Below, piece by piece: positions 11,134 to 24,255 of a stretch of DNA of 39,846 nt. The translations under genes and the position numbers were made by a program. Each line of letters opens with the position of its first letter. Within the stretch, counting starts at the first letter, position 1. The DNA comes from Thermoplasmata archaeon. GTDB lineage: Archaea; Thermoplasmatota; Thermoplasmata; Thermoplasmatales; Thermoplasmataceae. The notes below the pieces were generated by a model. It was given only the letters and a program-made list of their open reading frames with translations, searched no databases and was not told the origin of the DNA. Where the stretch lies: the NCBI GenBank assembly GCA_021822985.1, contig JAKAPZ010000008.1, positions 1 to 39,846 on the forward strand, written 5' to 3'.

Positions 11134-11158
11134 ATGAATACCATGCCGTATACTCATT

Positions 11159-15987: not shown

Positions 15988-16191
15988 AATTTTATTTTTT
16001 TAATAATTTTATACAAAATCGCATTATGCGTATAAATCATCTTATTTGCAACAAAAATTTATATTTATTACCTGAAAAAATAATTTGAAAGTTCGCATAA
16101 TACGGAGAATTAAGAGTAATATTCTGATATGATTAGAAATAATATTTTTAAAGAAATACTCGATTTTAAAAGCTGTTTTAGTATTATAAAT

Positions 16192-16197
16192 GTATAC
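16192..16197. promoter_or_regulatory. GTATAC operator candidate, distal site of the MFS promoter
   Basis: The site atGTATACac is centred about 21 bases upstream of the TATA centre of the transporter promoter and exactly 30 bases (about three helical turns) from the proximal GGTATACC site. See the finding on the GTATAC regulon. Confidence 0.5.
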
Positions 16198-16210
16198 ACA
16201 ATAAGGAAAC

Positions 16211-16220
16211 ATTAAATATA
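16211..16220 (+). promoter_or_regulatory. TATA-like box for the MFS-SDR operon
   Basis: The sequence attaaatata is centred about 24 bases before ATG 16240. Confidence 0.5.
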
Positions 16221-16228
16221 GGTATACC
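16221..16228. promoter_or_regulatory. GGTATACC palindrome, proximal operator candidate of the MFS promoter
   Basis: This perfect 8-base palindrome directly abuts the TATA box and lies between it and the expected transcript start. A bound protein would block initiation. Confidence 0.5.
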
Positions 16229-16239
16229 ATGAATTAGGT

Positions 16240-17625
16240 ATGGAGTTAAAAGGTGTAGACAAATACTCTCGATTTACTCTTAGGCTCTGGATTTTGCTAC
16301 TGTTGCTGCTCATAGCTGGAAGTTTTATGAATTTCTTTGACTTTTTTATCATTGGATTCATTAATACTTTTATTACCAAGCCATGGCATATCAATGTCGG
16401 AGACGCAGCATGGCTTATACTTGCCTCTGGGTTGGGACTTGTCGTTGGCGGATTTAGCACAGGAAAACTAATGGACATGCATGGCAGGAAAATTATACTG
16501 ATTTTGAATGTTATTGTATATTCAGTTTTCAGTATATTGAGTGCATTTGTTCCCACAGGCAACTGGCAGCTTCTTGCTGTTTACAGATTTTTCCTTGGAA
16601 TAGGTGTAGGCGGTTCCTTTGCAGTTGTGTTTCCATATATTGCTGAATTTGCCCCAGCTTCAAGAAGAGGACTTCTCATTGGGCTTGTGGTAATAGGCAC
16701 TCCGGTCGGAACGCTTCTGGCTTCACTGAGTTCAGCTTTCCTGGAACCTATAATTGGTTACAGGGGACTGCTTCTTGAAGGCGGAATTCCTCTTCTCATG
16801 ATTCCCTTCCTGTTCCTGTTTGCATACGAATCCCCAAGATGGCTCATTGGAAAGGGTAAATTGGAAGAAGCAAGAACAGTCATCGCTAAAGTTTACAATC
16901 TTTCAAAAGACTCAGTAAAACTTAACCCTGAGGATTTTCCAAGTTTCAACAAGAAGACAAAATGGGCCGATCTTTTCAAATATCCAAAACCTCTGACCAC
17001 CACATGGATCATTAATTTCACACTTCAGTCTGTTTCATATAACTTCACAATCTGGGGCCCTGCAATTCTTATATTTGTGCTTGGCGTGAGCAAAACAGGT
17101 GCTGCATACCTGTTCATCTTTGTCTCACTTTCAGGATTGAGCGGAAGAGTCCTGATGGATCTCCTTCTGGACAAAATTGGCAGGAGACTCTCAGGCATTA
17201 TAACCAGCCTTGGTGCAGTGATATTTCTTGTACTTGCAGGAATATTCCACTCTGTTGTGATAGGGAGCGCATCTCTGTTTTACATACTTGCCATCGTGAG
17301 CTATTTCTTCCTTGATGCTAACTGGCCAGTACTGACAGTGGTTGGTTCAGAGTCATGGCCCCAGGAGATCAGAGGAACCGGATGGGGATCTGGTTATGGA
17401 TTTGGCGCATTCGGAAAGATTGCAGGTACAATCGTGCTTGCACTGCTTGTGGGAGTTGGAGTGTCCATATCTCCAAAACCGGATCTTGCAGGTATACTTC
17501 CAGTGTTCCTGTTCTTCGGCGTGATGATCTTCATAGCATTCCTGATGTTCCTGTTTATAGCACCAGATTACAAGGGCAAGTCACTGGAAGCTATTGACAG
17601 GGAGCAGGCAGAGGCTGCTCAATGA
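16240..17625 (+). CDS. MFS transporter, probably for sugars or organic acids
   Basis: This 461-residue protein has about twelve transmembrane segments and major facilitator signatures: DMHGRKIIL in the loop between helices 2 and 3, ESPRWLIGKGKLEEAR after helix 6 (the PESPRWL motif of the sugar porter family), and DKIGRRLSG in the second half. It is probably a proton-coupled importer. The proximity of catabolic genes and two GTATAC operator candidates in its promoter suggest it takes up the substrate degraded by the downstream genes. Its stop overlaps the SDR start (ATGA), so these two are translationally coupled. Confidence 0.92.
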   Translation: MELKGVDKYSRFTLRLWILLLLLLIAGSFMNFFDFFIIGFINTFITKPWHINVGDAAWLILASGLGLVVGGFSTGKLMDMHGRKIILILNVIVYSVFSILSAFVPTGNWQLLAVYRFFLGIGVGGSFAVVFPYIAEFAPASRRGLLIGLVVIGTPVGTLLASLSSAFLEPIIGYRGLLLEGGIPLLMIPFLFLFAYESPRWLIGKGKLEEARTVIAKVYNLSKDSVKLNPEDFPSFNKKTKWADLFKYPKPLTTTWIINFTLQSVSYNFTIWGPAILIFVLGVSKTGAAYLFIFVSLSGLSGRVLMDLLLDKIGRRLSGIITSLGAVIFLVLAGIFHSVVIGSASLFYILAIVSYFFLDANWPVLTVVGSESWPQEIRGTGWGSGYGFGAFGKIAGTIVLALLVGVGVSISPKPDLAGILPVFLFFGVMIFIAFLMFLFIAPDYKGKSLEAIDREQAEAAQ

Positions 17626-18581
17626 ATACACTCATAACAGGGGGCGGCATGATAGGAAGTCATGCTGCCTCTCTTTTAATTCAGAATAAAATTAATCCCA
17701 TCCTCATGGAATTGAGGCCCCAACAGGATTCAGTGAATGATATTCTTGGAAATAATGACATAAAAACCATTTCCGGCGATATGCTGGATTTTAATTTTTT
17801 TCTTGAAACTGTAAAAAAACACAGTATTGATTCCATTGTTCATACCGTTGCAAATCCAATGCTGAATGCGGGTGCAAATGACAACCCCTATGAAGCAATC
17901 AAGCTCAACATAATGGCAACAGCCAATGTTCTTGAAACTGCAAGAAAACTTGACATTGGAAGGGTTGTTTTCCTCAGTTCAGCAACCCTTGAGACCAATC
18001 TGAAACCTGCCTCCGAGATCGGGCAGATGAGCGAGGATAACATACCAAGAACCACAAACATATACTCAAGCACCAAGATTGCCTGTGAAAATCTCGGCCT
18101 GAACTATTCTGAACTTTATGGAACGGATTTCGTTTCCCTCAGGCCTGTTGGTGTATTCGGGCCATGGCTGGGAAAGGGCGGTGGTGGAAGATCTAACATG
18201 ATGAAGAATCTGATCGAGAACATTCTCCATGGCAGGGAGGGACTAATAAGCCCCTGGGTTGGGGAAATTGTGTACATAAAGGATGTCGCACTTTCTATCC
18301 TGAGAGCTCTTATCTCTGACAGCATAAAATTCAGGATCTATAACGTTGGAATGGGTGAAATATACAGTCCTGAACAGATTATCAGGATATTCAGCAAAGT
18401 ATCCCCCGGATCAAAAATAAGGGTGGAATCGGGTGGAGACATGCTAAAATTCAAGCCGGCAATTCTGGCAGAAAGGCCAATGGATTTGAAAAGAAGCAAA
18501 AATGAACTTGGATATGTGCCTGAATATCTAATGGAAGAAGCCATTCTGGACTACATGAAATGGTTCAGGCTTCACATCTGA
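17622..18581 (+). CDS. NAD-dependent epimerase/dehydratase (extended SDR)
   Basis: This 319-residue protein is an extended short-chain dehydrogenase/reductase. The N-terminal LITGGGMIGSHAA binds the dinucleotide; its glycine motif is one residue shorter than the usual TGGAGFIGSH. The catalytic serine region is VVFLSSATL and the YxxxK motif is YSSTKIACENL (Tyr148, Lys152). Family members include sugar-nucleotide epimerases, aldose and uronate dehydrogenases. Coupling to a transporter and proximity to UxaA-like dehydratase genes suggest oxidation or epimerisation of a free sugar or sugar acid; this is inference. It is the second gene of the MFS operon. Confidence 0.88.
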   Translation: MNTLITGGGMIGSHAASLLIQNKINPILMELRPQQDSVNDILGNNDIKTISGDMLDFNFFLETVKKHSIDSIVHTVANPMLNAGANDNPYEAIKLNIMATANVLETARKLDIGRVVFLSSATLETNLKPASEIGQMSEDNIPRTTNIYSSTKIACENLGLNYSELYGTDFVSLRPVGVFGPWLGKGGGGRSNMMKNLIENILHGREGLISPWVGEIVYIKDVALSILRALISDSIKFRIYNVGMGEIYSPEQIIRIFSKVSPGSKIRVESGGDMLKFKPAILAERPMDLKRSKNELGYVPEYLMEEAILDYMKWFRLHI

Positions 18582-18671
18582 TTGCCGTTTATCATGAAGA
18601 TTCGGAAAAAAATTCTATATAATTTATATTATCTTTAAATTTTGTTAATTGATGAATTTTATGCATATTAA

Positions 18672-18682
18672 TTGGTATACAA
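18672..18682. promoter_or_regulatory. GTATAC operator candidate of the cyclase operon (TTGGTATACAA)
   Basis: The site aatTGGTATACAActt closely resembles the AAATTGGTATACCAATTT consensus known for bacterial UxuR/ExuR. Its centre lies about 20 bases upstream of the TATA centre. Confidence 0.55.
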
Positions 18683-18691
18683 CTTCACAAA

Positions 18692-18733
18692 CGTTTTTAT
18701 ACTATTATCAATTTTATTGATGATATACTGGAG
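18692..18733 (+). promoter_or_regulatory. promoter of the cyclase-SAF-UxaA-ADH operon
   Basis: A TATA-like gtttttatac lies at 18692-18702. A perfect inverted repeat ATCAAT-TTT-ATTGAT at 18707-18721 covers the space between it and the expected transcript start, a repressor position. A Shine-Dalgarno-like ggag lies at 18730-18733, so this message seems to have a short leader. Confidence 0.5.
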
Positions 18734-18741
18734 ATGTTATA

Positions 18742-19401
18742 ATGAGTGTATTTATAGATTTGAGCCATAATTTTGAAAGGGGGATTCCGGTGCCAGACTG
18801 GCCCGGAGAGCACAGGCAGGAATTCGAACTGGACCAGTACAATGTCACCGTGAACAGCGGAACACAGAACAATCTCAGGATGAACCTGCACTGCGGGACA
18901 CATGTGGATGCGCCTTTCCACTACTGGAAAGAGGGAATGTCAGTGGAGAAGATCCCCATTGAAACAATGATTGGAAGATGTTATACAATAAAATTGAGCA
19001 AAAATGCGCTGGAAGGCATATCAGAAAAAGATCTCGAACCTCATGTGAAAAACATCAAGAGGGGACAGATGCTCTTCATCAACACCGGATGGTACAAGAA
19101 GTGGCCCACGAAGGAATATGAAACCTCATACCCATTCCTCTTTCCGGATGCCGGAAAACTCATTGCAAGCCTTGGAGTTTCAGTCCTTGGGCTGGATACC
19201 CCTGGACCAGACGCACCCATAAGAAGCGGAAAGAGAAAGGGAGATCCACTCCACATTGAACTGCTTTCAAAGAGCATGCCGATTATAGAGAACCTGGACA
19301 ATCTTGATCCCATAAGCGGCCTGGAATCTACTGTATATGCGCTCCCCATAAAGCTCTCGGGCTCAAGCGGCGCACCTGTAAGGGTGGTTGCATCCATATG
19401 A
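18742..19401 (+). CDS. cyclase-family metal-dependent hydrolase (kynurenine formamidase-like)
   Basis: This 219-residue protein carries the family motif HCGTHVDAPFH (residues 50-60), whose His and Asp bind zinc or manganese. The family hydrolyses amides and lactones or cyclises them; members include kynurenine formamidase and isatin hydrolase. Further conserved stretches are FIDLSHNFERGIPVP, LFINTGWYKKW and VLGLDTPGPDAP. It is the first gene of a four-gene operon with all junctions overlapping. Lacking tryptophan-degradation genes nearby, a sugar-acid lactone or similar substrate is more likely than formylkynurenine, but this is inference. Confidence 0.88.
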   Translation: MSVFIDLSHNFERGIPVPDWPGEHRQEFELDQYNVTVNSGTQNNLRMNLHCGTHVDAPFHYWKEGMSVEKIPIETMIGRCYTIKLSKNALEGISEKDLEPHVKNIKRGQMLFINTGWYKKWPTKEYETSYPFLFPDAGKLIASLGVSVLGLDTPGPDAPIRSGKRKGDPLHIELLSKSMPIIENLDNLDPISGLESTVYALPIKLSGSSGAPVRVVASI

Positions 19402-19691
19402 ACGCAGAAGAATTAAAAAGATCAAAGATAGTGCTCCTTTCCGCGGGCGATAATGTGGCAGTTGCCCTTATTCCAATTCAGAAGGGAGATATTGTTGAAA
19501 ACTCGGGCAAAAAAATTGAGGCCACTGACGACATAGATTTTGGGCACAAGATAGCCCTGAGAGACATTAAGAAGGATGATAACGTGATAAAATACGGTGA
19601 AATAATTGGTGTAGCAACGGAAAATATCGCAGTTGGATCCCATGTGCATGTGCATAATGTGAAATCATTGAGGGCTGATAAGCATGAGTGA
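19398..19691 (+). CDS. SAF-domain small subunit of a UxaA-family dehydratase/lyase
   Basis: This 97-residue protein matches the stand-alone N-terminal SAF domain of altronate dehydratase-like enzymes: DNVAVALIPIQKGDIVE, the central DIDFGHKIALRDIKKDDNVIKYGEIIGVAT and the terminal GSHVHVHNVKSLR, all typical of UxaA/GarD small domains. In E. coli altronate dehydratase both parts are one chain; here they are two, as in the SuyA/SuyB sulfolactate sulfo-lyase and many archaeal homologues. Its start overlaps the cyclase stop (ATGA) and its end overlaps the next start by 8 bases. Confidence 0.9.
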   Translation: MNAEELKRSKIVLLSAGDNVAVALIPIQKGDIVENSGKKIEATDDIDFGHKIALRDIKKDDNVIKYGEIIGVATENIAVGSHVHVHNVKSLRADKHE

Positions 19692-20832
19692 ATTGAACGC
19701 ATACCTGAACCCGGACGGAAAAGCTGCGCCAAGAAACCACAACCTGATTCTTTCACTAAACTCATTTTGCAACACTGCAGCACAGGGCATTCACAGATCT
19801 GTGAATCCGACAGTCCTCATAACTCACCCGCATGGAAGGAACGAGATTGGAATTAACAAGGAGAGGTTGAGGAAATCACTCATTGGAAATGCGTTGAATC
19901 CAAATGTTTTCTCTGTTCTTGTAGTGGGATACGAGGATAAAAGCACTTCATCATTCGTAAATGAACTCAGGGCGAAAACAAAGAAACCAGTGGAAAGCGT
20001 TCTTGTTCTTGACAATGGAACACTGGGGGCTACAAAGGAAGGGGCAGAAATAGCTTCAAGATTGTCCCAGATCAATTCCGAGTATTCCAGAGAAAAGTTC
20101 AGCATCTCGGATTTCACCATAGGCCTGAAATGCGGTGGAAGCGATGCAACCTCAGGAATAGTTTCCAATCCAGCCGTGGGAAAGGCAGTGGATCGTATCA
20201 TCAACATGAAAGGCACTGCCATATTCTCTGAAACAACCGAGATAATTGGGGCAGAGCATATACTGGCAAAAAGGGCAGCAAACAACAAGGTTGCTCTTGA
20301 CATACTGGAAGCGGCAAGAACGAATGAGGAGATGGCAATGTCTCTTGGTGTGGACCTGATTGGCACAAACCCTGTTCCGGATAATATCAGGGGAGGAATA
20401 AGCACCATTGAGGAAAAATCCATTGCTGCCATCATGAAATCCGGTTCAGGAAAAATTAATGGCGTGCTGGATTATGCATCCACTCCTCCTGACAGGGGCC
20501 TTTATTTCATGGATTCACCATCTGCGGCAACTGAAGTGCTGACTGCCATAACTGCCGGAGGGGCATCCATCATTCTTTTTACCACGGGTTCGGGTAATCC
20601 CGTGGGCTCTCCTGTTTCACCTGTCATAAAGATAACCGGAAACCCCTATGCTGCAAAGAAAATGAAGGAACACATAGATGTGGATATCAGTGAAGTCATA
20701 ACGGAAGGAAAGAGCCTCCAGGTTGGATCTGATAAGGTATACCGTATCCTGGAAAAAACCATTTCAGGAAGACTCACAAAATCTGAAATACTTCATCACG
20801 ATGAATTCGCACCGATACCGGTGGGACTATGA
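19684..20832 (+). CDS. UxaA-family dehydratase/lyase, large subunit
   Basis: This 382-residue protein matches the catalytic part of altronate/galactarate dehydratases and sulfolactate sulfo-lyase. It shows LKCGGSDATSGIVSNPAVG, the RGGISTIEEKSIAAIMKSG segment and FTTGSGNPVGSPVSPVIKITGN. The region that is often THxxGCG-like in relatives reads THPHGRNEIG here, so a cysteine is absent. Reaction: beta-elimination of water (or sulfite) from a hydroxy acid. The exact substrate (altronate, galactarate, another aldonate, sulfolactate) cannot be read from sequence. It forms a two-subunit enzyme with the preceding SAF protein, and is followed by a coupled alcohol dehydrogenase. Confidence 0.9.
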   Translation: MSELNAYLNPDGKAAPRNHNLILSLNSFCNTAAQGIHRSVNPTVLITHPHGRNEIGINKERLRKSLIGNALNPNVFSVLVVGYEDKSTSSFVNELRAKTKKPVESVLVLDNGTLGATKEGAEIASRLSQINSEYSREKFSISDFTIGLKCGGSDATSGIVSNPAVGKAVDRIINMKGTAIFSETTEIIGAEHILAKRAANNKVALDILEAARTNEEMAMSLGVDLIGTNPVPDNIRGGISTIEEKSIAAIMKSGSGKINGVLDYASTPPDRGLYFMDSPSAATEVLTAITAGGASIILFTTGSGNPVGSPVSPVIKITGNPYAAKKMKEHIDVDISEVITEGKSLQVGSDKVYRILEKTISGRLTKSEILHHDEFAPIPVGL

Positions 20833-21860
20833 CAGAAAACAATGCAATGGCCATACATCAATACGGGCAGGAACTTTCAATGGAAACCACCAGAATGGCC
20901 CCATTGAAAAGAGGATATGCAAGGGTCAGGATCAGGGCAAACGGCGTTTGCGCAACGGACGTGAAACTTGTGGATGGTGTTGGCTTCAAGCCTGCCCTTC
21001 CGTTCGTTCCCGGACATGAACCCTCAGGCATAGTGGAGGAGATGGAAACTGATGATCCGAGATACAAAGATTACATCGGCAAATCATTTGTCATTTCGCC
21101 TCACATAACATGTGGCGAATGCGAGAACTGCCTTTCAGGAAGGGAAAACATATGCCTCAACATGGTTGGAAGTCTCGGAATATCCATTAATGGCGCTTTT
21201 GCGCAGTACGTGGACATACCCCTGAAGAATCTTGTGGAGATGCCAGAGGGAATGGATCACTCTGTCGCAGCTCTTGCTGGAGGTGTGGTTGCAGTTCCGC
21301 TGGTTGCAATCAGGGCCCTTGGTAATCTCATGGAGAAGAATGTAGTGGTACTGGGATCAGGCGGACTTGCACTGGCAGCGATTCAGATTCTCAATAACCT
21401 GAGCGCTAAAGTAATAGTTGTGGGAAGAAAGGAAGAAAAACTCAGGGTTGCAAAGGAACTTGGGGCATCTGTTTCCATAAACAGCACCTCAGGCGATTAT
21501 GTGAAGGAAATTATGGAATACACTGGTGGCCGCGGTGCTGACAACGTTATAGATCTTGCAGGAGATCCAAAGGAAGTGCCAAAACTGCTCTCTGCGCTTA
21601 AGAGAGGCGGAACGCTTTCAATTGTGGGATATTCTTCATCTCAGATTTCATTGGATTACCGCAGGATCGCCCTTGATGCCATACAGATCAGAGGTTCAAG
21701 ATCCTATACCAGGAATGATCTCAGGCTTGCTGTCAACCTGATGAAATCCGGGAAAGTCATGCCCATTATTTCACACAAAGTGCCACTGGAGTCTGCAAAC
21801 AATGCAATTTCACTTGTCAGGAACGGTTCATCAATCGGCAGAGTCGTTTTGGAAATATGA
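20829..21860 (+). CDS. zinc-dependent alcohol/polyol dehydrogenase (MDR family)
   Basis: This 343-residue medium-chain dehydrogenase has the catalytic-zinc residues Cys41 (GVCATDVK) and His63-Glu64 (PGHEPSG), a structural-zinc lobe with four cysteines (Cys95, 98, 101, 109: CGECENCLSGRENIC), and the Rossmann motif VVVLGSGGLALAAIQI. It should oxidise a secondary or primary alcohol with NAD(P). It is the last gene of the cyclase operon (ATGA overlap with UxaA). Within the cluster it may oxidise a sugar, an aldonate, or an intermediate after dehydration. Confidence 0.92.
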   Translation: MTENNAMAIHQYGQELSMETTRMAPLKRGYARVRIRANGVCATDVKLVDGVGFKPALPFVPGHEPSGIVEEMETDDPRYKDYIGKSFVISPHITCGECENCLSGRENICLNMVGSLGISINGAFAQYVDIPLKNLVEMPEGMDHSVAALAGGVVAVPLVAIRALGNLMEKNVVVLGSGGLALAAIQILNNLSAKVIVVGRKEEKLRVAKELGASVSINSTSGDYVKEIMEYTGGRGADNVIDLAGDPKEVPKLLSALKRGGTLSIVGYSSSQISLDYRRIALDAIQIRGSRSYTRNDLRLAVNLMKSGKVMPIISHKVPLESANNAISLVRNGSSIGRVVLEI

Positions 21861-21902
21861 CTTAATAAATAATTTGATAATCAATTTCACAATCAAAAGT
21901 TT

Positions 21903-21919
21903 AATTTATTAATATATTT
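21903..21919 (+). promoter_or_regulatory. TATA region of the GntR gene
   Basis: The sequence taatttattaatatatt offers TATA positions matching starts at 21924 or 21936. Upstream, TTGATAATCAA (21874-21884) is a perfect inverted repeat, and ATAATCAATTTC (21877-21888) recurs exactly upstream of the DRE-TIM gene. Confidence 0.4.
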
Positions 21920-21923
21920 TATC

Positions 21924-22598
21924 ATGACAGTATACATGTTCGAGTCATCAAATCTTTCTAAAATTGCATACGAAAACATACTGAAACTCATTACAAGCGG
22001 TGAAATAAAACTCGGCTCACAGGTTTCCCAGAATGAACTTTCAAGAAAGTTCCCAATGAGCAGAACTCCGGTAAGGGAGGCCCTCTTCGCACTTGAAAAT
22101 CAGGGATTGCTTGAGAAGAATGGAACGAAATATTATGTTTCCTATATATCAAAGGAAGATGTCATCAAACTGTATGAAGTCAGGAAAATCCTTGAAGGAG
22201 GATCTGCAAAGATCTGTGCAATGAATCTCAATGATGCAGGAAGAAAAAGACTGGAGAATATCATGAGAAAATTGAAGATTCTCTCAGAATCTGAAGTTGC
22301 GACACCGGACGAGATTGCTGCTGAAAATGGTAACCTTCACCAGACCATAGCGGAGATGTCAGGAAATGCATATATTTACAAATTCATAATGGAAACCCTC
22401 CTGAAACTAAGGCTTGTGAGGATGAGCCTTCTCATATCCCAGGAGAGAAGGGTCGAAGAGTACAGGGATCACAAGATTATCGTGGATCATATACTGAAAG
22501 GAGAGGGGGAAAAAGCCTGTGCAGCAATGCAAACGCATGAGGATGCTGTGCTTGAATTTGCACGGAAAACAGTATTTAAAAAATTTTATGTGGACTGA
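21924..22598 (+). CDS. GntR-family transcriptional regulator, FCD (FadR) type
   Basis: This 224-residue regulator has an N-terminal winged helix (LGSQVSQNELSRKFPMSRTPVREALFALENQGLL), the classic GntR SRTPVREAL signature, and an all-helical FCD effector domain (VIKLYEVRKILEGGSAKICAMN, LHQTIAEMSGNAYIY, EYRDHKIIVDHILKGEGEKA) whose histidines and Asp commonly bind a metal and a carboxylate ligand. FCD regulators sense organic and sugar acids. The start may be ATG 21936 (MFESSNL), which would put the GTATAC at 21930 just before it. It probably controls the surrounding locus and itself. GntR/FCD proteins are mainly bacterial, so acquisition by transfer is plausible. Confidence 0.92.
   Translation: MTVYMFESSNLSKIAYENILKLITSGEIKLGSQVSQNELSRKFPMSRTPVREALFALENQGLLEKNGTKYYVSYISKEDVIKLYEVRKILEGGSAKICAMNLNDAGRKRLENIMRKLKILSESEVATPDEIAAENGNLHQTIAEMSGNAYIYKFIMETLLKLRLVRMSLLISQERRVEEYRDHKIIVDHILKGEGEKACAAMQTHEDAVLEFARKTVFKKFYVD
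21930..21935. promoter_or_regulatory. GTATAC operator candidate at the GntR start
   Basis: The site caGTATACatg lies between two possible start codons. At this position a bound GntR protein would repress its own gene. Confidence 0.45.
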
Positions 22599-22610
22599 AA
22601 AATTATTTCA

Positions 22611-22901
22611 TTATTTTTCAGGCATTACAGGCGGATTCATGAAACCGTTCCAGAATATTTCCCATCCCTTCATCACAAAGGTGGTCAGTCCACTGGCGAA
22701 GTAAGGATCCGAGGATGCAAGTTTTTTTGCCTCTTCAAGATCCTTTGTGTTCCAGACCAGGAATGATCCTGTGTTGTCCACCATTCTTCCTGCAAGTTTC
22801 AACTTGCCCTGTTCAAGCATTTTCTTAAGGAATTCCCTGTGAACTTTTTTCAGTTCATCTGAGGGCATCCTGACAAACGAAGTTATTTCTACAACAAACA
22901 T
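22611..22901 (-). CDS. YciI-like small protein
   Basis: This 96-residue protein matches the YCII family (ferredoxin-like fold, alpha/beta): MFVVEITSF at the N-terminus, HREFLKKMLEQGKLKLAGRMVDNTGSFLVW with the conserved His and Gly, and SDPYFASGLTTFVMKGWEIF with the Asp-Pro-Tyr motif. Members have been linked to catabolism of aromatic or sugar compounds and to dehalogenation-like chemistry, but the function is usually unknown. It follows the DRE-TIM gene by 14 bases, in the same operon. Its stop is 12 bases from the convergent GntR gene end. Confidence 0.85.
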   Translation of the reverse strand: MFVVEITSFVRMPSDELKKVHREFLKKMLEQGKLKLAGRMVDNTGSFLVWNTKDLEEAKKLASSDPYFASGLTTFVMKGWEIFWNGFMNPPVMPEK

Positions 22902-22915
22902 TCATATCGTCTCCT

Positions 22916-24136
22916 TCAGTCTTTCTCCATTAGGGCTTTCAGCTCATTGTCGTTCAGGGGCCCCTTCCTGGCAAGAGCCATCTTTTTAAGTTTTCTCAGC
23001 ACAGCAAGGGCCTCCTCATCAGTGAGACTCAGTCCGAACTTCTCAGCCTTGTAATGGATCGTGTCAATTCCGCTCTTCTTGCCGTTGATGATCTCAACCT
23101 TCCCATGCCCCACAAGTTCCGGTGAGAACGGAAACATTTCCATGGGCATGTTCATCTTTTCCAGCCTCCTCCACCAGCTTGCAAGAATTCCGGATTCGAC
23201 ATTGAATATGTGATCACCCACAATTGGCTTCTGTGGAGGGAAGTTCACTCCTGATCTCTCCCTTGCAAGAACCGCAAGTTCCCTGAGCATTTTGGTCTTC
23301 ACACCTGAATTTATCCCATAGAGATATTTCAGAGCCATTACACTCTCTTCCATGGATGCATTTCCGCTCCTTTCCCCGATTCCGGTGAGGCTCACATGAA
23401 TTGTGGAGGCCCCACCAAGAACGGCAGATATTGTGTTTGCAACAGCAAGTCCGAAATCGTTGTGTGCATGAATCTCTATGGGCTTGTTCACCTTTGATTT
23501 TATCTTCTTGATGAAAAATGTTGTTGCCTGCGGATTCAGGACGCCAAAAGTATCCGCAAGCGCGAATGAATCCATGTGGCCTTCGTCAACAACCTTTCCT
23601 GCAATTTTCCAGAATGTTTCAAAGGGGGCCCTTGTGGCATCAATGGTGAAGAATGTGACCTTCAGTCCATGCTCATGGGCATAAGAGGTGGCCTCCACAG
23701 ACAGTCTCACTGCTTTTTCAACATCCCAGCCATAAGCATTCTTTATGAGATGATCACTGGATGGAATCTCCATTACAATTCCTTCCACATCTGCACTGAG
23801 GGCACTGTCCACATCCCCCTTCATGCATCTTGCAAAGGAATATACCCTGCTTCCGAGACCGAGATGGGCTATCTCCTTAACCACGGATGCATCCTCAGGG
23901 GATACTGAAGGCATTCCGGCTTCTATCCTGTCCACACCTGCTTCGGAAAGTTTTGTCGCAATGGCGATCTTGTCATCCCTCCTGAAGGTGATCCGGGCCT
24001 GCTGCTCCCCGTCCCGAAGCGTCACGTCATGTATTTCCACCTTGTCCGGTATTTTCACATTTCCAAGAATCTCAGGATCAAAATCGTAAAAACTCACAAA
24101 ATAATCTTTTCCCTTGTGTTTTTCACCTTTTTCCAT
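22916..24136 (-). CDS. DRE-TIM metallolyase family protein (isopropylmalate/homocitrate synthase- or HMG-CoA lyase-like)
   Basis: This 406-residue protein has the full TIM-barrel set: HDVTLRDGEQQARITF (DRE motif, metal-binding Asp), EAGMPSVSPEDASVV, the HAHNDFGLAVANT metal site and TGIGERSGNASMEE. It lacks the C-terminal LeuA regulatory domain; the last about 120 residues instead resemble those of homocitrate/citramalate synthase relatives. It could condense a 2-oxo acid with acetyl-CoA or run in the lyase direction. Its place in a regulon with dehydratase and dehydrogenases, and with no amino acid biosynthesis genes near, makes a catabolic reaction more plausible; this is inference. It is co-transcribed with the YciI gene. 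Confidence 0.85.
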   Translation of the reverse strand: MEKGEKHKGKDYFVSFYDFDPEILGNVKIPDKVEIHDVTLRDGEQQARITFRRDDKIAIATKLSEAGVDRIEAGMPSVSPEDASVVKEIAHLGLGSRVYSFARCMKGDVDSALSADVEGIVMEIPSSDHLIKNAYGWDVEKAVRLSVEATSYAHEHGLKVTFFTIDATRAPFETFWKIAGKVVDEGHMDSFALADTFGVLNPQATTFFIKKIKSKVNKPIEIHAHNDFGLAVANTISAVLGGASTIHVSLTGIGERSGNASMEESVMALKYLYGINSGVKTKMLRELAVLARERSGVNFPPQKPIVGDHIFNVESGILASWWRRLEKMNMPMEMFPFSPELVGHGKVEIINGKKSGIDTIHYKAEKFGLSLTDEEALAVLRKLKKMALARKGPLNDNELKALMEKD

Positions 24137-24153
24137 ATATAACCATTGTTTCT

Positions 24154-24167
24154 CTTTATTAATATTT
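24154..24167 (-). promoter_or_regulatory. TATA-like box for the DRE-TIM/YciI operon
   Basis: On the minus strand this reads aaatattaataaag and is centred about 24 bases before ATG 24136. Confidence 0.45.
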
Positions 24168-24177
24168 TTCTATTACT

Positions 24178-24183
24178 GTATAC
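24178..24183. promoter_or_regulatory. GTATAC operator candidate of the DRE-TIM promoter
   Basis: The site ctGTATACacattataatcaatttc is centred about 20 bases upstream of the TATA centre, matching the spacing at the MFS and cyclase promoters. The adjoining ATAATCAATTTC also occurs in front of the GntR gene. Confidence 0.5.
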
Positions 24184-24255
24184 ACATTATAATCAATTTC
24201 TCGCATTTTCCATATACATGTATTTTGCCCCCAAGCTCATGTTGAGATCAATCAG

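Follow-up and report, generated by a model that had tools for sequence, protein, structure and literature searches.

Genes and GTATAC boxes of the catabolic locus

The window (the whole stretch of DNA that was analysed, 39,846 nucleotides from a Thermoplasmata archaeon) contains a catabolic locus that opens with two units on the plus strand. The first comprises an MFS transporter gene (16240–17625; PF00083/PF07690) and, overlapping its stop codon, the gene for an NAD-dependent epimerase/dehydratase family protein (17622–18581; PF01370). The second encodes a cyclase-family hydrolase (18742–19401; PF04199), a SAF-domain small subunit (19398–19691; PF08666), the large subunit of an altronate/galactarate-type dehydratase (19684–20832; PF20629 and PF04295) and a zinc-dependent alcohol dehydrogenase (20829–21860; PF00107 and PF08240). 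It is followed, still on the plus strand, by the gene for a GntR/FCD regulator of the FadR subfamily (21936–22598; PF00392 and PF07729) and, in the opposite direction, by those for a DRE-TIM (isopropylmalate/homocitrate synthase-like) enzyme (22916–24136, minus strand; assigned from profile matches) and, downstream of it, a YciI-like protein (22611–22901, minus strand; PF03795). The NCBIfam matches of the locus proteins, namely, to galactarate dehydratase, L-threonine dehydrogenase, isopropylmalate/homocitrate synthase and an aromatic-acid symporter, all lie below cut-off; a sugar acid would be a plausible substrate class for the pathway.

The palindrome GTATAC begins at 16192, 16222, 18675, 21930 and 24178, exactly where the initial annotation had placed it, and each of the four promoter regions has at least one copy, again as claimed. 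The MFS promoter has a predicted distal operator, TGTATACA (16191–16198), a predicted TATA box (16212–16218, in the ATTAAATA region) and a predicted proximal operator, GGTATACC (16221–16228), between the TATA box and the start codon. In the cyclase operon, the putative operator GTATACA (18675–18681) precedes a predicted TATA box, TTTTATA (18695–18701); on the minus strand, the putative DRE-TIM operator (24177–24184) again reads TGTATACA, with a predicted TATA box, ATTAATA, at 24157–24163. The remaining copy (21930–21935) abuts the GntR gene and is a weak candidate for an autorepression site. For this gene, the start at ATG 21936 is more likely than that at 21924, which was rejected because the corresponding upstream ATG of G051 is not in frame; with the former, the GTATAC box touches the start codon.

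Chance had been judged a poor explanation for so many copies in some 650 b of gaps, and the counts bear this out. Five copies lie in the 655 b of the locus's four intergenic regions, against 0.21 expected from an intergenic background of nine in 28.3 kb of the window's genome (P = 2.7 × 10−6; 1.7 × 10−4 after correction for the 64 palindromic hexamers and 3.7 × 10−3 when an upper bound on the background rate is also applied). The background sample consisted of 277 kb in 20 stretches, in which GTATAC occurs at 0.20 per kb in coding and 0.32 per kb in intergenic DNA, together with whole-genome pattern counts (225 copies of GTATAC in 1.41 Mb). The window as a whole contains 13 copies, roughly twice the genome average, and eight of these fall inside coding sequence, which might be taken to point to chance or to a promoter feature that is general in the AT-rich DNA of the Thermoplasmatales. 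The coding copies are, however, near the background rate, and the excess is confined to the promoter copies. Dinucleotide shuffles overstate the window-wide excess, for they expect 2.3 copies per window, against about 6.4 at the actual genome average; a reversed-pattern control was uninformative, CATATG itself being about three times commoner than GTATAC. Against chance, only 4 of 164 promoter regions sampled elsewhere in the genome carry GTATAC, as compared with four of four at the locus, so that the motif is not equally common in unrelated promoters, and the full composite, in which the box stands at its fixed distance from TATA, is found in just one of the 164, itself likely to be a further target. 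Elsewhere in the window, a copy at 11148–11153 lies within the opening codons of the gene for ribosomal protein L11 (minus strand, ATG 11157), probably by chance.

Promoter architecture and conservation

A stack of 17 promoters from up to seven genomes, aligned without gaps, places the TATA box at +20 to +26, counting from the first base of GTATAC, with the two centres 20.5 bases apart; the spacing of 20–21 bases originally given is thus correct. Within the stack, GTATACA is invariant at 0 to +6 (the A at +6 is present in 17/17 promoters, and a T at −1 in 12/17), positions +14 to +16, corresponding to the BRE, are A-rich, and +21 is T. The TATA-proximal half of the palindrome is better conserved than the distal half. 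Identity is 0.58–1.0 across the box itself and drops to 0.2–0.5 just upstream of it, except between the closest pairs, so that in each promoter constraint ends, on the upstream side, with the box. From the start of the box to the ATG there are 48 b for MFS, 47 b for DRE-TIM, 67 b for the cyclase and 82 b for an acyl-CoA-ligase-like gene described below, and the distance from box to TATA is equal in all promoters, save for one additional base in one ligase copy; the spacing is fixed relative to TATA rather than to the start codon. The site therefore sits directly upstream of BRE/TATA at a constant distance, as is characteristic of an archaeal activator element. At 48 and 47 b from the box, the ATGs of MFS and DRE-TIM fall at the expected transcript start, and both genes are probably leaderless. 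The leadered genes are preceded by GGAGAT (cyclase) and by GGAGAT or GGAGAAC (ligase). In three species, a two-codon ATG-NNN-stop (ATGAATTAG, ATGAATTAA and ATGGTTTAG; window 16229–16237) follows the proximal GTATAC, ahead of the MFS start; it would be untranscribed if the MFS transcript is leaderless, and could otherwise be a mini-ORF.

Orthologues of the regulator are present in G056 (87% identity), G051 (76%), G084 (61%) and, as a contig-end fragment, G052. With the window's genome included, the box is kept at the corresponding position in five of five genomes for DRE-TIM, four of four for MFS (the distal site) and four of four for the cyclase (the relatives being G056, G051 and G084); it is also kept in the more distant G079 and G078, the cyclases of which are 47% identical. 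No box was found before four DRE-TIM matches at 34–43% identity, or before cyclase matches at ≤37% identity. In a distant clade, four promoters that lack an exact GTATAC, those of the cyclase of G082 and of adjacent MFS-like genes of G079, G078 and G082, keep a half-site, AATACA (or AATGCA), at the composite spacing. That G082 possesses both regulator and cyclase, with only a half-site in the cyclase promoter, is a point against the explanation that we favour below. The MFS proximal box lies 30 bp from the distal one in G000, G056 and G051 and is degenerate in G084 (kept, therefore, in 3/4 genomes), and the GntR-start box is seen in 2/4 (the window's genome and G056), being absent from both G051 and G084; for these reasons, the two boxes are less certain parts of the regulon.

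Distribution of the composite and the candidate binder

The whole-genome scan that had been proposed as a check was run with the composite and yielded a further target, an AMP-forming, acyl-CoA-ligase-like gene preceded by a composite at G000:C4:7245–7272. This composite is kept in G056 (protein 75% identical), where most of the flanking DNA has diverged. The surrounding stretch, G000:C4:4000–12000 (L178), holds two tandem acyl-CoA-ligase-like genes that are about 49% identical, and only the one at C4:5745–7190 has the composite before it. On the minus strand of G084:C8 (L175), a second MFS gene has a composite box exactly 48 b before its ATG and, judged from this promoter, is likely to be an extra regulon member; its best homologues within the genus are only about 45% identical.

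Composite counts in the five genomes with an orthologous regulator are 6, 3, 3, 5 and 5, where one of the G000 counts comes from reading the same palindrome on the opposite strand, and a G051-like DRE-TIM fragment, possibly cross-binned, contributes to those of G056 and G052. In the same two genera, ten genomes that lack the regulator give 0, 0, 0, 1, 0, 0, 1, 1, 0 and 0 (P = 7 × 10−4 for co-distribution). Since the counts are 3–6 with the regulator and 0–1 without it, promoters of these two genera do not carry the composite as a general element. The composite pattern has a higher background in genera richer in AT, with several matches in the absence of this regulator, and to that extent these genera speak for a general promoter feature; the few matches in congeners without the regulator and the conservation of a fixed spacing in other species speak against it. 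On the promoter stack, the cross-genome counts and the background promoters taken together, we reject chance, which we regard as extremely improbable. The conserved operator and its small regulon are genuine, and the proposal that a shared cis-element at fixed TATA spacing marks one regulon is upheld by the stack and by the counts across genomes. The G051-like fragment mentioned above occurs at contig ends in G052:C63 (L097) and G056:C56 (L089), shows no difference, in the part that was read, from the promoter and start of DRE-TIM in G051, and stands beside the genomes' own copies; it probably reflects cross-binning of co-occurring populations.

The presence of a GntR/FCD regulator, already recognized in the initial annotation, is confirmed by above-cut-off matches to PF00392 (42 bits) and PF07729 (74 bits). 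The three His columns of the FCD histidine triad are invariant in 15 homologues and Escherichia coli UxuR. Its recognition segment reads MSRTPVREAL, and homologues in site-bearing loci share MSRTPxREAL; near five aligned homologues reading SKTPIREA, no promoter GTATAC was seen. A phmmer search against the PDB matched GntR-family chains (e.g. 7xp0, 3fms/3sxy and NanR, 6on4); TAL-effector matches to residues 91–135 were discarded as spurious. In FadR-subfamily operators, GT and AC lie two or three bases apart, the GT-N2-AC members including the UxuR, PrpR, MdcY and GntR groups (PMC4494728). GTATAC fits the GT-N2-AC form, and the predicted operator has the palindromic GT/AC character of the subfamily, G-T-A-T-A-C being invariant in the 17 promoters. 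No regulator other than the FCD-GntR protein was found in the conserved locus, and this protein is likely to be the natural binder of the boxes. Some other regulator might be envisaged, given that targets exist outside the locus and that the box of the GntR gene itself is not conserved; the form of the site, the lack of any rival regulator in the conserved locus and the way in which composite counts track the GntR protein across related genomes make this improbable. Regulator and targets were mostly gained together, and co-distribution alone is thus no proof of the binder.

A kinship to UxuR/ExuR had also been suggested, and this part is not supported. The regulator scores 27.3 bits against a cut-off of 442 for the UxuR model, and does better on phosphonate-associated (88.5 bits) and NanR (73 bits) models; none of its NCBIfam equivalog matches reaches cut-off. 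The gntP–uxuA intergenic region of E. coli K-12 contains GGTCAACC and GGTTAACC and no GTATAC, and on the model score and this comparison membership of UxuR was rejected. The supposed likeness of the sites to the UxuR/ExuR operator is not borne out either: the TTGG..CCAA flanks vary, the cyclase promoters of the relatives reading CCAGTATACAA or GACGTATACAA. The GT-N2-AC pattern is shared by a section of the FadR subfamily that includes UxuR (PMC4494728), and the fit of GTATAC does not make the protein a UxuR.

Mode of regulation and known systems

We consider it probable that the GTATAC boxes are operators of the local FCD-GntR protein (21936–22598), activating from upstream of the BRE and repressing from the MFS proximal site. 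A GntR dimer would bind the palindrome, with T-GTATAC-A as its core; at the MFS, cyclase, DRE-TIM and ligase promoters, the operator would be presented just outside the BRE, its centre preceding that of the TATA box by 20.5 bp, or about two helical turns, where archaeal activators help to recruit TBP or TFB, and binding there would most likely activate. The second MFS operator, 30 bp downstream and between TATA and the start, should block initiation, and the GntR-start box may give autorepression in some species; the ligand would probably be a sugar acid or other carboxylate. We infer the sign of regulation, activating for upstream and repressing for downstream boxes, because archaeal activator sites and TrmBL1 positions behave in this way: TrmBL1 activates from sites upstream of the BRE and represses from sites downstream of TATA (PMC4706686), EarA, Ptr2 and the ara-box lie upstream of the BRE (PMC5512572), and XylR provides an archaeal activator site outside the BRE (PMC7264815). 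The more specific proposal, of a position-specific activator acting two helical turns upstream of TATA at at least four promoters and a repressor acting from the start-proximal MFS copy, is advanced tentatively.

Many bacterial FCD-GntR (FadR-subfamily) proteins are repressors, and a model in which the GntR protein represses everywhere from the same operator, hindering TFB or TBP beside the BRE until released by a pathway intermediate, is possible, if rather unlikely. The MFS proximal and GntR-start boxes do occupy repressor positions, and YtrASa, the only characterized archaeal GntR protein that we found, is a repressor (PMC6746942). Uniform repression would not, however, need one exact upstream position, and the exact conserved spacing upstream of the BRE at four promoters is more typical of activators.

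A bacterial regulator family acting on an archaeal promoter is of a kind already known, and each of several systems shares part of the arrangement proposed here. Bacterial FadR-subfamily regulators (PMC4494728) have the same PF00392 and PF07729 architecture, a GT-N2-AC palindrome core and a local catabolic regulon, but the present system differs in its TATA/BRE promoter with one fixed spacing and in having no NCBIfam equivalog orthology; that survey analysed no archaeal member. TrmBL1, with the glycolytic motif of the Thermococcales (PMC4706686), uses one palindrome either upstream of the BRE or downstream of TATA for a sugar regulon, as may be the case here, although it belongs to the TrmB family, has a longer motif (TATCAC-N5-GTGATA) and is global rather than local. 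The ara-box/XylR system of the Sulfolobales (PMC7264815; PMC5512572) also places a short palindrome immediately upstream of the BRE in several sugar-catabolism promoters, with a regulator gene nearby, but the motif (AACATGTT) and regulator are different and the lineage is crenarchaeal. YtrASa of Sulfolobus acidocaldarius (PMC6746942) is an archaeal GntR-family protein with a semi-palindromic site over the transcript start, comparable with the GntR-start box; in contrast, it belongs to the YtrA subfamily, has 121 aa and no FCD domain, and is a pure repressor of two membrane-protein loci. Its authors knew in 2019 of no earlier experimentally described archaeal GntR-like regulator (PMC6746942), and we found no archaeal FadR-subfamily (FCD) GntR regulon in the literature searched, which covered few subscription journals.

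If the position-specific reading is correct, this regulon would be the first of the FadR subfamily to be described from archaea, hosted by an uncultured, acid-loving archaeon in which a regulator of bacterial type is encoded among its targets, and one operator would suffice to test how the location of a site decides between activation and repression. Few archaeal activators have defined operators; the element provides a testable operator and predicts a regulon comprising four to five promoters in related, uncultured Thermoplasmatales, with natural variants available in the form of half-sites and of one- and two-operator promoters. It also ties the DRE-TIM enzyme and the acyl-CoA-ligase-like gene to the same catabolic locus. 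In G081:C43 (L056), the genes next to a paralogous FCD-GntR gene of the MSRTP type resemble, by eye, prpD (2-methylcitrate dehydratase) and prpB (2-methylisocitrate lyase); no GTATAC was seen at their promoter, and the neighbourhood recalls bacterial PrpR loci.
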